NCBI GenBank assembly: GCA_937872275.1
Contig: CALMSE010000085.1
Location: 1 to 8,413 of the forward strand
Source: an uncultured Leucobacter sp.
GTDB taxonomy: Bacteria > Actinomycetota > Actinomycetes > Actinomycetales > Microbacteriaceae
DNA: 8,413 nucleotides
Direction of reading: 5' to 3'
Shown here: one piece after another, positions 2,564-8,413 of the stretch
Position numbering within the stretch: position 1 is the first letter of the stretch
Layout of the letters: each line of letters begins with the position of its first letter
Notes under the pieces: model-generated
Databases searched by the model: none
What the model was told of the DNA's origin: nothing
Seen by the model: the letters and a program-made list of their open reading frames with translations, nothing else
Translations under genes and position numbers: made by a program

Positions 2564-4243
2564 TCACCGCCAGCCCGGCAGCCACAGATGCGCGCGCCAG
2601 AACCACTCGGCGATCGGCATCCCGCTCCAGACGGGGAAGAAGAGCACCCCCAGCACCAGGGCCGCGATCACGAAGACGGCGACGGCCAGCCGCCGGCCGC
2701 GCACGGCCGCGGGAGAGGGATCCGGGCGGATCCCCGCGAGCGCGAGCACGCTCGGAGCGGCCGTCCCGGGCCGCTCGCCTCCGGCGGAATGGGTCGCGAA
2801 CGGGGGGTGGAGGGTGCCCGAAACCCCCATTCGCGACCCATCGCGAGCGCTGCGGGGGGCGACGGGCGGGGGCACGCAGGCGAGGGCGCCCAGCACGAGC
2901 GCCAGGGCGAGGGCCGCGAACGGGGTCAGTACGACCGCGTAGAACTGGAACACCGCCGAGCGCGAGAAGGTGAGCACCCAGGGCAGCCATCCCGAGAGGT
3001 AGCCGGTGAGCACGAAGGCCGCGGCCCAGAAGGCCGGTGCCCGGAAGGCCCGGCCCGCGGGGGACGGTCGGGCCCCGGCGACGGATCGGGCCCCGCGCCG
3101 AGCCGCGATCCACCCGCTCCGCAGCACGACCCAGACGAGCAGCGCCAGCGCGAGCACCCCGCCCCAGGTGACGAGTGGATTCGGCAGCGGCGAGATCGCC
3201 GACACGCAGCCCGAGGCCCAGCGGCACCCCTGCTCGGCGCCCCAGGAGGCCTCGTACATCGCAGTGGGGCGCAGGGCGAGCGGCCAGCTGAGCGGATTCG
3301 CCTGATACGGATGCGGGGCCGAGAGGCTCGAGTGCCAGTTCAGCGCGTCGGCGTGCCAGCGGGCGAGGGAGGTCCACCAGGCCTCGCCGGTCGTGCGCTC
3401 CTGCGCACCCGGGTTCGCGATCCACCCCGCCCAGCTCGCGAGGTAGGTCGCGAAGGCGGCGGGCAGCGCGATCGCCGCCGTCGCGAGCGCCTGCACCGCA
3501 GCCCCGGCGAGCGGTCGCCGCAGGAGCCCCGCGCGGCGCTCCCGGCGGCGCAGCCACCAGTCGCGGAGCGTGATGAGCACGAGGAAGCCGGCGAGGGCGT
3601 AGAGCCCCGACCACTTGACCGCGGCGGCCGCTCCGAAGGCGATGCCCGCTGCGATCAGCCAGGGGCGGCGCCAGGCGATCCGCCCGAGTGCGCCGCGGCG
3701 CAGGAAATCGCGCGGCGACGCCTGATCCCGCCACACGAACAGCGCGCCGAGCACGACGAAGAGCGTGAGGAAGCCGTCGAGCAGCGACACCCGCGAGAGC
3801 ACCACGTGCACGCCGTCGACCGCGAGCAGCAGCCCGGCCAGACATGCGATCCACATGCTGCGGCTCATGAGCCAGCCGAGGCGCATCGTGAGCCCGACGG
3901 TCGCGACCCCGGCGAGGGCCGCGGCGATCCGCCACCCCCAGCCGCTGTCGGGGCCGAGCAGCAGGATGCCGAGCGCGATGAGCCACTTGCCGAGCGGCGG
4001 GTGCGCGATGGCGTTCGGCTGGTCGGAGAAGAGCGTCGCGCGCTCGCCGCCGAACGCCGGGTCGTCGTCGGGCCAGGTCGTGGTGAAGCCGTGCGCGAGC
4101 TGGCTCACCGCGTCGCGCACGTAGTAGAGCTCGTCGAAGACGAGCGAGTCGGGGCGGCCCAGCGCCCACAGCCGCAGCAGCGCCGCGAGCGCGAGCACCG
4201 CGACGGGCGCGATCCAGCGCAGGCGGTGCAGGGCGGTGCTCAC
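2564..4243 (-). CDS. pmt: Protein O-mannosyltransferase, GT39 family (559 aa)
   Basis: Transfers mannose from polyprenyl-phosphomannose to Ser/Thr of proteins being exported through Sec; a multi-spanning membrane enzyme. FDELYY at residues 36-41, just after the first membrane helix, carries the acidic pair characteristic of the PMT family. HPPLGKW (81-87), RVSLLDGF (151-158) and AAVKWSGLY (207-215) are further conserved elements. Roughly ten hydrophobic segments follow, ending in the typical actinobacterial tail PVWSG...[12 protein letters not shown]. Translation starts at GTG (4243), with GGTGG just upstream. The loop before the last membrane helix (about residues 455-510) is long, Pro/Arg-rich and contains an in-frame palindromic repeat, unlike the compact loop I would expect. 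The gene is divergent from proS. Confidence 0.93.
2789..2841. repeat. Long palindromic repeat inside the pmt coding sequence
   Basis: ATGGGTCGCGAA at 2789-2800 is perfectly complementary to TTCGCGACCCAT at 2830-2841. Pairing continues through a G5/C5 run, giving 18 matches over 20-base arms (2789-2808 and 2822-2841) and a 13-base loop. It falls in frame over about residues 468-485 of the transferase, in a hydrophilic loop. The shape is that of a REP or MITE-like dispersed element; whether other copies exist cannot be seen here. Confidence 0.6.
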
Positions 4244-6095: not shown

Positions 6096-6380
6096 CGAGC
6101 GGCTCCGGCCTGCGCGCAGACCCGGCCTCAGGGGTTCCGGTCTGCGAGGGGTTGCTCCCCTTCGGGTCGCTCCGCCGTCCTTCGGGCTCCGAGGCTGCTT
6201 CGCGCTCGAGCGCCTGCTCCCGCCTCGCTTCGACCCCTGCGCCGGCTCTCGGGTCGGGGCGGTCCTTCCGCCCCTGCGATAGGGCAGGAGTCGCAGGTGT
6301 TCGTCGGTCTTGCCCGCAACCACTGCCCGACTGCGGGGCGTGTATGGATGCCTTGTGCTCTCTATCGCCGTGCACAGCTG
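6096..6380. other. Gene-free, hairpin-rich stretch after proS
   Basis: I find no credible gene here: open frames lack Shine-Dalgarno sequences and read as low-complexity Arg/Pro/Ser protein. Several stems are visible: 6116-6125 with 6137-6145 (one bulge), 6147-6151 with 6157-6161, the 12-base palindrome GCGCTCGAGCGC (6202-6213), and the 7-bp perfect stem GGGGCGG/CCGCCCC (6256-6262, 6268-6274). CTTCGGG is repeated near 6160 and 6180. The G+C content drops from about 6290 onward, marking the change to the secretion cassette. Confidence 0.5.
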
Positions 6381-6436
6381 CCATAGGCGCATGATTTGGA
6401 TGAGTTATCCACATATTCGTTGTTCATCGCCTATGG
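6381..6436. promoter_or_regulatory. Inverted repeat flanking a DnaA box, upstream of the secretion cassette
   Basis: CCATAGGCG (6381-6389) and CGCCTATGG (6428-6436) are perfect 9-base inverted arms. ATGA/TCAT extends the match after a one-base bulge. The 38-base interval is AT-rich and contains a perfect DnaA box. It could be a looped operator or a cruciform-prone site. Confidence 0.45.
6405..6413 (+). promoter_or_regulatory. Perfect DnaA box TTATCCACA
   Basis: TTATCCACA matches the consensus TTATNCACA exactly. It is a single box, so this is not an origin; it could allow DnaA to influence the adjacent promoter, or be chance in the locally AT-rich segment. Confidence 0.4.
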
Positions 6437-6457
6437 GTTATGCAGGCCTGATAACGT
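6437..6457 (+). promoter_or_regulatory. Operator-like palindrome overlapping a putative -10 of the cassette
   Basis: GTTATGCAGGCCTGATAAC (6437-6455) is symmetric: GTTAT and ATAAC flank the perfect 8-base palindrome CAGGCCTG, with a single extra G. Its right half overlaps TAACGT (6452-6457), a TAnnnT -10 candidate that would start transcription near 6464. No good -35 is visible, which would suit an activator-dependent promoter. The promoter assignment is inference. Confidence 0.45.
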
Positions 6458-6463
6458 AACTCA

Positions 6464-6484
6464 CATCACCTGGGGGAGGTGATG
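6464..6484 (+). promoter_or_regulatory. Hairpin sequestering a near-perfect Shine-Dalgarno
   Basis: CATCACCT (6464-6471) and AGGTGATG (6477-6484) pair perfectly, 8 bp around a GGGGG loop. The right arm and loop contain GGAGGTGAT (6475-6483), a nine-base complement of the conserved 3' end of 16S rRNA. The left arm thus mimics the anti-Shine-Dalgarno. In RNA it would block ribosome loading on the leader peptide; as DNA it could also be a repressor dyad. Confidence 0.6.
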
Positions 6485-6487
6485 CGT

Positions 6488-6541
6488 ATGAAACTGAATA
6501 TCCTGCGAACCGGGGGCTCTTCGCGACCTACACCCCGATAG
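6488..6541 (+). CDS. Possible 17-residue leader peptide of the secretion cassette
   Basis: A short frame, MKLNILRTGGSSRPTPR, starts at ATG 6488, with the nine-base Shine-Dalgarno GGAGGTGAT ending four bases upstream; ATG 6482 is in frame but sits inside that site. Its TAG stop (6539-6541) is part of TAGGAG, the Shine-Dalgarno of the WXG100 gene, so terminating ribosomes would be delivered to that gene. The peptide is basic, with no run of one amino acid that would indicate classical attenuation. Whether it is translated is inference; the alternative is that the strong site is only a spurious match in a DNA operator. Confidence 0.45.
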   Translation: MKLNILRTGGSSRPTPR

Positions 6542-6553
6542 GAGAACCCCATC

Positions 6554-6847
6554 ATGGCCAACATCAATGTGTCGTACGGCGAGATCGAGCAGGCTGCGGC
6601 GCAGCTCGGCACCGGTCGCGAGGAGATCACCGCGAAGCTGCAGAGCCTGCAGCAGCAGATCGCCAATCTGGTGGCCTCCGGCTTCGTCACCGACCAGGCC
6701 TCGGTGAAATTCAACAACGCCTACACCGAGTACACCACGAGCGCGAACACCGTGGTGAACAAGCTGAACGAGATCCAGAGCTTTCTCACGCAGACGGCGA
6801 ACGCGATGCGCGACATGGACGCGCAGATCGCCGCTCGCATCGGTTGA
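6554..6847 (+). CDS. WXG100-family type VII secretion protein lacking the W-x-G motif (97 aa)
   Basis: A small helix-turn-helix protein of the ESAT-6/CFP-10 superfamily, secreted through or acting as partner in a type VII (ESX) system. Its length, the NVSYGEIEQAAAQL start, a first helix to about residue 40, a turn, and a second helix ending QIAARIG all fit. At the turn, where W-x-G is expected, it reads SGFVTDQAS (42-50), with Phe replacing Trp and Thr replacing Gly, followed by the expected hydrophobic VKFNNAY. I see no C-terminal YxxxD/E secretion signal (it ends AMRDMDAQIA), so it may be exported with a partner carrying the signal. AGGAG lies nine bases upstream of the ATG. First structural gene of the cassette. 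Confidence 0.88.
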   Translation: MANINVSYGEIEQAAAQLGTGREEITAKLQSLQQQIANLVASGFVTDQASVKFNNAYTEYTTSANTVVNKLNEIQSFLTQTANAMRDMDAQIAARIG

Positions 6848-6849
6848 TC

Positions 6850-6877
6850 CCTCCTCTCTGCCTGTTCTGAGAGGAGG
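6850..6877 (+). promoter_or_regulatory. Perfect hairpin masking the Shine-Dalgarno of the second cassette gene
   Basis: CCTCCTCTC (6850-6858) pairs perfectly with GAGAGGAGG (6869-6877), 9 bp with a 10-base loop. The right arm is the Shine-Dalgarno of the gene starting at 6883. The left arm begins two bases after the WXG100 stop (6845-6847), within the footprint of a terminating ribosome, which would melt it. This is the geometry of translational coupling. Confidence 0.65.
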
Positions 6878-6882
6878 AATTC

Positions 6883-7212
6883 ATGGCGGAGAGCCTTTGC
6901 CTTGACGAGCATCGCCTCGTTCTCGCTCGATCGGAACTCGTGCGGGCAAGCGAAGAATTGCGCTCGGTCGGCTCGAGGGTGCCCTGCGTAGCGATGCAGA
7001 GCCTCACCGGGATCGGTGGTGAGGTGCAGGAGTACCTCGAGACCGTGCGGGTGGCGAGTCAGCTCCTTGCCGAGGGCGCGAATGCCGCAGGTGCTGCGGC
7101 GAGCACTGCCATTCAGGTGAGCACCGACACGGATCGATCCGTCGCCGCAGCGTTGAACCTGGGCGCTGAAGGGGCATCGGTCAGCTTCCAGATCGGGCAG
7201 GAGAAGACATGA
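6883..7212 (+). CDS. Helical type VII secretion-associated protein, EspC-like (109 aa)
   Basis: The family is not certain. The product is about 100 residues and predicted helical, with a first helix LDEHRLVLARSELVRASEEL (7-26), a Gly/Pro-containing break (30-47), a second helix EVQEYLETVRVASQLLAEGA (47-66), and an Ala-rich segment ending TDRSVAAALN (83-92). That plan resembles the EspC/ESX-target small proteins encoded beside WXG100 genes. There is no signal peptide. It carries two Cys (6, 35). The Shine-Dalgarno AGAGGAGG is strong but lies in a hairpin. The stop overlaps the next start (ATGA), so it is probably made in a fixed ratio with the large downstream protein and may be its chaperone or co-secreted partner. 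That role is inferred from position only. Confidence 0.8.
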   Translation: MAESLCLDEHRLVLARSELVRASEELRSVGSRVPCVAMQSLTGIGGEVQEYLETVRVASQLLAEGANAAGAAASTAIQVSTDTDRSVAAALNLGAEGASVSFQIGQEKT

Positions 7213-8413
7213 GCCATGTGCCGGCTTCTGCTACGGAACTGCTCGTGCCAGGGACACTGGTCGCCGGGGACTCCGATGAGCCGCTTGCAGTCGCGCACTA
7301 CCTGAGTTCGGTGTCGGGTGAGGGCGGGGTCTTCGCCGCTCGCCTGCGCTCGGCGCAGGCGCAGTTCGATGCCCAACGGGGTTTGGCGGTGACCGCTATT
7401 CGGATGCGACTCGAGAGTGATCCGCTTCCCGGAGCAAGGACCCTTGCCATGAGTGCCGGATCTTCTCGGGAAGCATTCGTCAGGTACGCCGAAGCCGTTC
7501 GAGACTTGAATCGTCAGGGAAGCATGCTCCTGGAGCGAGTTGATGCGCACCTTCACATGATTCGGGTGCAGAAGGGGGAAATCGAGACCATCGCTGGCAG
7601 GATCGGAGTCCGAGGAGAGTACATCTGGAATGAGGGTGCCCCGTTGCATATACCGGAGTCGCGTTATTCAGGGGCGCCTACCGCGATGGAGCCCTCGGCC
7701 CAGCTCTCCGAACTGGAGCGGCTGAGACAGGCCTACGAGTCGCACTGGCAGACCGCCGCTCTGCGCTGGGCGGGGGCTCTCGCCGACATCGACAGCGAAC
7801 GCAGTCGGTGGGCCGGACTGATCGACTTGCGTCGAGTCGCTGAGCGGGACCTCATCGCTTCACTCCGGCGCACCGACGTCGGAAATCTTGCCTTCTCTCC
7901 CGGAGCCCGCGGCGGTGATCTCCGGGGAGTGATCGCCATGAGCTTCTTCGGCTCCCGGGTGATGATGGACGACGGTCCGTTTGAACCTCCGACCAGCCAT
8001 CAGCTTCTGACGAAGCTCATCGGTACCGACGACGGTCGTGACATCTGGAACAATCCGCCGAGCCCGATGACGGTCGCCGCGAATTGGGCGAAGCTCACGA
8101 CGGAGGAGCAGAGCATCCTGATCGCTCAGGTGCCCTGGGTCATCGGAAACCTGCCCGGTCTGCCGTTCACGCCGCGCGACCTCGCCAATCAGAAACTCGC
8201 CGACTTCTACGACGCGAATCGGGACCGGCTCGATCCTCGTTCCTTGGCCGCACTCGATGAGGTGATGGGGCTTATGGACCGGCGCAAGGCCGGAATGCCG
8301 CCGGTCTACATCGTGGCGCTCAACCTGCAGAAGGGCGAGGTGCCGATGGTCGCCGTCGGATACGGAGATCTGGACTCGGCCGACAACCTGACCTGGGAGG
8401 TGCCCGGGATGGA
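7209..8413 (+). CDS. Type VII-associated protein: helical N-terminal region plus DUF1023 alpha/beta-hydrolase domain (partial, 401 aa visible)
   Basis: Translation starts at ATG 7209, overlapping the upstream stop by four bases, with AGGAG five bases before it; the frame is open to the window end. Residues 1 to about 220 are alpha-helical and lack a Sec signal. They include two RWAG motifs (186-189, 200-203) in a long amphipathic helix, suggestive of a WXG/LXG-like delivery domain. From about residue 290 the sequence fits the DUF1023 (Abhydrolase_8) family: NWAKLTTEEQ, then IGNLPGLPFTPRDLAN (312-327), and VAVGYGDLDSADNLTW ending VPGM (381-401). The nucleophile Ser and the rest of the fold lie beyond the window, so activity cannot be judged. 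Its position behind a WXG100 gene makes an exported hydrolase, possibly an effector, plausible; a housekeeping envelope enzyme is the alternative. Confidence 0.85.
   Translation, partial: MSHVPASATELLVPGTLVAGDSDEPLAVAHYLSSVSGEGGVFAARLRSAQAQFDAQRGLAVTAIRMRLESDPLPGARTLAMSAGSSREAFVRYAEAVRDLNRQGSMLLERVDAHLHMIRVQKGEIETIAGRIGVRGEYIWNEGAPLHIPESRYSGAPTAMEPSAQLSELERLRQAYESHWQTAALRWAGALADIDSERSRWAGLIDLRRVAERDLIASLRRTDVGNLAFSPGARGGDLRGVIAMSFFGSRVMMDDGPFEPPTSHQLLTKLIGTDDGRDIWNNPPSPMTVAANWAKLTTEEQSILIAQVPWVIGNLPGLPFTPRDLANQKLADFYDANRDRLDPRSLAALDEVMGLMDRRKAGMPPVYIVALNLQKGEVPMVAVGYGDLDSADNLTWEVPGM

Follow-up and report, generated by a model that had tools for sequence, protein, structure and literature searches.

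The window, meaning the whole stretch of 8,413 nucleotides that was analysed, is contig 85 of an uncultured Leucobacter genome (2.57 Mb, 77% complete) and runs to the contig end at position 8413. Near that end lies a cassette of three plus-strand genes, the first of which encodes a WXG100 protein by two profiles (PF06013, 66 bits against a cut-off of 27.3; TIGR03930, 56.1 bits against a cut-off of 44.85), while the second gave no match above any cut-off in a family search. The nearest relative of the WXG100 protein is found in Candidatus Leucobacter sulfamidivorax GP (91% identical; locus L032, the same as L080), where two further features lie beyond the homologous cassette: first another WXG100 cassette, then an FHA protein whose partial sequence resembles EssC (E 5.5e-32) and EccCa (E 5e-30), in both cases under the curated cut-offs. 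Because of that second cassette and the EssC/EccCa-like FHA protein, the original prediction was right in kind to call the locus a type VII secretion cassette, though no EssC/EccC-type ATPase is encoded in the window before the contig stops at 8413. The same prediction had proposed that translation of the cassette is gated serially, through a hairpin over the Shine-Dalgarno (SD) sequence of a leader peptide, a leader stop codon inside the WXG100 SD, a second hairpin over the SD of gene 2 and an ATGA overlap between genes 2 and 3. All four features are present on direct reading of the sequence and are listed here with the other features of the window.

2564-4243, minus strand: protein O-mannosyltransferase gene (PF02366)
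6449-6457, plus strand: predicted extended -10 box, TG-a-TAACGT, from the sequence, with the hexamer at position -102 relative to the WXG100 start
6464-6484, plus strand: 5′ stem-loop, CATCACCT (6464-6471) with AGGTGATG (6477-6484), 8 bp, loop GGGGG
6482-6541, plus strand: putative leader ORF of 19 amino acids, proposed in the original prediction and not conserved
6504-6525, plus strand: hairpin S1, TGCGAA (6504-6509) with TTCGCG (6520-6525), loop CCGGGGGCTC, supported by covariation
6512-6550, plus strand: pairing S2, which buries the WXG100 SD in the minimum-free-energy (MFE) folds of the window and L032
6540-6544, plus strand: WXG100 SD, AGGAG, from the sequence, with the ATG at 6554 following at 9 nt
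6554-6847, plus strand: WXG100 gene, 97 amino acids (PF06013, E 3.7e-18)
6850-6877, plus strand: stem-loop over the gene-2 SD, CCTCCTCTC (6850-6858) with GAGAGGAGG (6869-6877), 9 bp, 10-nt loop
6883-7212, plus strand: gene 2, 109 amino acids, 67% identical to its L032 counterpart
7209-7212, plus strand: ATGA, the stop-start overlap between genes 2 and 3, from the sequence
7209-8411, plus strand: gene 3, truncated where the contig stops; its L032 relative, at 71% identity, is an Abhydrolase_8-domain protein

Two perfect stems in so short a region had been judged improbable by chance, and this was borne out: when we counted perfect Watson-Crick stems of at least 8 bp with loops of up to 10 nt in the region 6380-6900, 1 of 200 dinucleotide shuffles matched the real sequence. 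Folding energies set the two hairpins apart. The first was unusual, being equalled by 4 of 200 shuffles of 6455-6500, but the second was ordinary (34 of 200; z -1.0 for 6840-6895 against 200 shuffles).

We then turned to related leaders. Of 54 Leucobacter genomes, 43 gave WXG100 matches in a same-genus search, which makes 50 places with the window counted. The window and the 49 other loci yielded 44 non-redundant leaders, the window among them, after six near-identical ones (L036, L041, L042, L062, L068 and L074) had been removed before counting; the distant or broken copies L035, L078 and L079 were retained. At L035 (G041:C16:31061-31348) the WXG100 copy, 88% identical to that of the window, has an in-frame TAG at codon 30, which suggests either a broken copy or a sequencing error. 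Tests on gene 2 used 35 loci with a gene-2 candidate, L035 being omitted; the set for unbroken stems on the gene-2 SD includes L036 and leaves out L071, and the set for gap stems and SD opening includes L071 and leaves out L036.

The 5′ stem-loop recurs across these leaders. Relative to shuffled sequences, hairpins were strongly enriched at -100 to -55 (z -6.5) and at -90 to -45 (z -7.8) from the WXG100 start in the 44 loci, and farther upstream z ranged from -1.7 to +1.3, except for -2.7 at -110 to -65. A -10-like word (TANNNT) occurred at -100 to -75 in 28 of the 44 loci, against 8.4 ± 2.5 in shuffles, the window's own word lying just outside this bin. In 33 loci the strongest hairpin after TANNNT began at a median distance of 8 nt, an offset calculated without a null; in the window, where TG occupies 6449-6450 and TAACGT 6452-6457, the stem-loop begins 6 nt on, at 6464. 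Although the arm sequences vary among species, the folds of the window and L032 show two compensated pairs (A-U to G-C and U-A to C-G) and one broken pair. The stem-loop at 6464-6484 is therefore the local version of a structure found genus-wide, and because it directly follows the predicted -10 box it probably caps the mRNA at its 5′ end. Hairpin 1 of the original prediction is accordingly conserved as a structure genus-wide, but it sits at the predicted transcript start.

A hairpin that is absent from the features first noticed, S1, lies between this stem-loop and the WXG100 gene. Many Leucobacter leaders carry a hairpin of this type (GCGAA...UUCGC closing a loop that contains GGGG) just 5′ of the WXG100 start, and hairpins with a GGGG loop were present in 23 of the 44 leaders, as compared with 4.3 ± 1.7 in shuffles. 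Among 23 motif-bearing leaders of the 50, picked by S1 plus a G-rich loop, the covariation score for the six pairs of S1 was 0.412. Shuffles gave 0.215 ± 0.034, with 0 of 500 reaching the real value, and slid controls gave at most 0.136. S1 in these leaders is a hairpin stem with compensatory changes: 20 cells showed two-sided change, as compared with 9.2 ± 2.8 in shuffles, and the number of pairs showing such change, four, was not unusual (reached by 87 of 500 shuffles). Structure in the S1 region was biased towards the sense strand (sense z -6.2, antisense z -2.2), which favours a role as RNA, and S1 makes use of G-U pairs. The exact core pattern occurred in 7 of the 54 genomes, once in each, six times right before a WXG100 gene and once inside an open frame, and a reversed control pattern had no matches in the 54 genomes. 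S1 does not form in the nested MFE fold of the window's own leader. Beyond the genus, GGGG-loop hairpins were no more frequent than chance in WXG100 leaders (13 of 64, as compared with 9.2 ± 2.5), and five other-genera leaders (L133, L137, L143, L173 and L175) carry them 17–29 nt before the WXG100 start.

In many of the loci the G-rich loop is complementary to the ribosome-binding site (RBS). In pairing S2, GGGG (6512-6515) faces CCCC (6547-6550) and CTCTT (6517-6521) faces AGGAG (6540-6544), so that in the window S2 uses two of the S1 bases. The complementary loop and RBS sequences differ among loci: GGGGCUC/GAGCCCC in L056, GGGGAUC/GAUCCCC in L038, GGGGCGUU/AACGCCCC in L073, GGGGGAC/GUCCCCC in L039 and GGUGA/UCACC in L064. 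A pseudoknot finder that demands both helices, with a geometry picked after inspecting these same leaders, gave a mean of -16.1 for the 60 nt before the WXG100 gene, compared with -8.0 for shuffles in which the final 12 nt were preserved (z -7.5 across 44 loci); real stretches shifted upstream (-11.4) or into the gene (-10.5) also scored below shuffles, and 8 of the 44 leaders had no candidate. The strict H-type geometry was found in 16 of the 44 loci, against 2.55 in shuffles (maximum 5); of 356 crude control sites, 43 had it as well, these being ORF starts largely in coding or antisense DNA that were later replaced by a gene-called intergenic set. When each sequence was compared with its own shuffles, 17 of 44 leaders reached p ≤ 0.05, compared with 4 of 51 stretches upstream of other called genes (Fisher 3e-4), one of the 51 being the L032 WXG100 leader itself, which did not reach p 0.05. 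None of 11 extra controls with short gaps reached p ≤ 0.05. Raw energies differed weakly from the intergenic controls (p 0.06), and S2 alone was not above the crude control sites (p 0.24).

Swapping the partners provided a test of the loop–RBS complementarity itself. Loops paired better with their own RBS than with swapped ones, whether scored as a perfect helix (p 0.003) or as a duplex (p 0.011). Automatic picking of S1 had settled on a different hairpin in the window and in some further loci; on 21 loci curated by S1 and loop only, the corresponding values were p 0.02 and 0.04. The window's loop ranked its own RBS 11th of 21. A generic version of the swap test on 27–40-nt stretches was set aside, giving p 0.004–0.04 for the leaders and 0.05–0.5 for controls. 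S2 was missing in five of the 21 curated loci (L052, L058, L059, L065 and L067, with ranks of 18–21), all of which retained the G-rich loop. That the loop outlasts its RBS counterpart is a hint of a partner in trans. In the L. komagatae-type loci L058, L059 and L065, an AAUCUG/CAGAUU-type hairpin beside the SD replaces the loop–RBS helix and the G-rich loop stays.

Nested folding also pointed to the WXG100 SD: the energy needed to open it exceeded that in shuffles (z +3.25 over 44 loci), with 11 of 44 at p ≤ 0.05. For the window alone SD opening was no higher than in shuffles (p 0.40), and for L032 p was 0.05. Once a Dirks-Pierce-type penalty was applied, the pseudoknot was the better fold in no more than 8 of 36 candidates, and in the window the nested fold was favoured (-13.9 versus -9.6 for the pseudoknot). 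RNAalifold on A2 returned 0 pairs and no consensus structure. Outside Leucobacter the pseudoknot signal was not clear, standing at z -0.5 in 55 loci of other genera taken from named records and at z -1.9 in 22 loci of the family, partly the same ones.

Comparison of the leaders thus showed both predicted hairpins to be kept genus-wide despite sequence change, S1 to covary and the WXG100 SD to be hidden in excess of expectation. The notion that RNA structure buries an SD in this operon appears to hold, mainly for the WXG100 SD and by way of the loop of a hairpin that had gone unlisted, but not in the form of serial gating. The model we favour is a structured leader that hides the WXG100 RBS, its G-rich loop doing the masking and its 5′ stem-loop standing at the end of the message, and we put the chance of this at about even; the estimate had stood slightly higher and was lowered because of the rank that the window's loop gave its own RBS and because S1 falls outside the window's MFE fold.

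According to this model, the WXG100 gene would be transcribed with a leader of ~90 nt, predicted to consist of the 5′ stem-loop followed by the hairpin whose G-rich loop is complementary to its own RBS. The loop would pair with the SD and the SD–AUG spacer, either alongside S1 as an H-type pseudoknot or by replacing part of S1, and a 30S subunit would have to open this pairing before initiation, so that the leader likely limits WXG100 translation. The 5′ stem-loop may shield the message or time its folding, and the RBS may be released when a trans-acting factor binds to the conserved GGGGGCUC loop. Genes 2 and 3 would be translated through ordinary reinitiation. We infer the transcription start, the pairing in the cell, the effect on translation and the trans factor from the sequence comparison. 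A bolder version is possible, and we hold it with clearly less than even confidence: the 5′ stem-loop and an RBS-clasping pseudoknot, with GGGGGCUC as a sensor loop opened by some factor, may constitute a new family of cis-acting RNA switches that sets the amount of WXG100 protein.

We considered whether the leader might instead act on mRNA stability, with the 5′ stem-loop and second hairpin stabilising the message and stem-loops in the gap between the WXG100 gene and gene 2 slowing decay from the 3′ side, so that WXG100 protein exceeds the downstream protein. Stem-loops at the 5′ terminus of mRNAs like ompA stabilise the message, and the Leucobacter stem-loop likewise lies at the predicted 5′ end. 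Its position right after the predicted start and the retention of S1 in loci lacking S2 both fit this explanation, as do unbroken gap stems of at least 9 bp in 6 of 35 loci (2.65 in shuffles, maximum 6), the longest being 19 bp in L061. However, stems of this length were found just as often ahead of other genes (8 of 51), 17 of the 35 loci had no gap stem of at least 6 bp, and stability leaves both the loop–RBS complementarity and the excess hiding of the SD unexplained; we therefore regard this explanation as doubtful, though the most credible of the alternatives. Gap stem-loops as a general rule were rejected, their excess being modest and matched upstream of other genes. Unbroken gap stem-loops of 9–19 bp stand ahead of the gene-2 SD in L061, L048, the second cassette of L032, L045 and L064, and these are possible decay barriers or partial terminators.

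The dyads could also be read as DNA operators for a repressor, the first of them at +1. The 5′ dyad is nearly as strong on one strand as on the other (sense z -4.8, antisense z -4.5) and adjoins the predicted -10 box, as an operator might. Its arms nevertheless vary between species, unlike a shared operator, and the sense bias and G-U pairs of S1 speak for RNA, making this reading unlikely.

The serial scheme, in which the ribosome translating one frame would open the next in the order leader peptide, WXG100, gene 2 and gene 3, drew on features that do exist, and two of them, the leader stop TAG (6539-6541) overlapping the WXG100 SD and the ATGA overlap, fit coupling. The leader ORF, however, is not conserved: an ORF of at least eight codons ending near the WXG100 start was present in 12 of 44 loci (9.6 ± 2.4 in shuffles), and L032 has a shifted frame whose stop lies 68 nt beyond the WXG100 start. 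The proposed leader-peptide gate is not supported by this result, and neither is leader-peptide attenuation, which would call for a conserved short ORF.

The gate at the gene-2 SD fared no better. The 6850-6877 stem begins two bases past the WXG100 TGA (6845-6847) and looks striking in the window, but across 35 loci the unbroken stems onto this SD were weaker than in shuffles (z +1.07; window p 0.06), and full folding showed the SD to be hidden no more than by chance (z -1.34, with none of the 35 reaching p ≤ 0.05; p was 0.60 for the window and 0.95 for L032). L032 has an unbroken stem of 5 bp here, compared with 9 bp in the window, and can still form a bulged hairpin over the SD, but 117 of 200 shuffles equalled that fold. 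By this comparison, the 6850-6877 hairpin is not a conserved gate. A striking SD-covering hairpin can be incidental, and genus-wide comparison is what tells a conserved hairpin apart.

The last link, the ATGA overlap, is present and is ordinary coupling; an NTGA overlap into a long ORF was found in 25 of 35 loci. The same kind of stop-start overlap occurs at cpnT-ift, where coupling is called likely (PMC7810871). Most of the proposed chain of gates is, on the sequences compared, not common to related species, and we consider serial gating the least probable of the explanations, despite the widespread overlap of genes 2 and 3.

Masking of an RBS by a leader is already known. In the rpsO (S15) leader pseudoknot and the preQ1 class I riboswitch, the RBS region is bound up with the loop of a hairpin by base pairing, and the fold governs initiation. 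The Leucobacter leader would likewise pair a hairpin loop with the RBS region, its pseudoknot form being a candidate, but the sequences of both helices drift and neither a ligand pocket nor a protein site was identified. The Leucobacter leader would be new by its place, its sequence drift and its two-part build. A riboswitch is not supported, as neither an Rfam family nor a conserved ligand-binding core was found and the helix sequences drift; Rfam gave no match at the gathering score on 14 sources, nor any for 6380-6920 of the window up to E 5. Because the architecture is kept while the sequence drifts, family-based RNA searches can miss such a leader. In our literature searches, judged by title and the start of the abstract, we found no study of a WXG100 mRNA leader, and no paper joining WXG100 and pseudoknot was found.

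Within type VII secretion, the nearest parallel is the 6C/B11 sRNA of Mycobacterium abscessus, which represses ESX-4 genes at their RBSs (PMC10470900). The two have in common post-transcriptional control of a type VII locus through RNA pairing at RBSs; B11 is a trans-acting sRNA with C-rich loops (PMC10470900), whereas the Leucobacter partner would be in cis. We rejected 6C/B11 as what pairs in trans with the G-rich loop, as 0 of 54 Leucobacter genomes had a 6C gene at E ≤ 1e-3 under strict filters, in a search of limited sensitivity whose control genomes gave a match in C. glutamicum only, below the cut-off; a relaxed search of 30 genomes, 19 of them Leucobacter, gave a best E of 2.2. If the masking model is true, a WXG100 gene outside the mycobacteria is under RNA control in cis, through a leader with an architecture kept while its sequence drifts, and post-transcriptional control of type VII secretion substrates becomes directly testable.

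The remainder of the window offered two minor observations. Within the protein O-mannosyltransferase gene, an imperfect inverted repeat seen by eye at 2791-2839 (GGGTCGCGAACGGGGG ... CCCCCATTCGCGACCC) looks like an inserted repeat unit. A catalase gene with a Fur-like regulator is a usual pairing, and on the minus strand, with both genes named from reading the sequence, a Fur-like regulator (2014-2466) is followed downstream by a catalase-like gene (435-1928).
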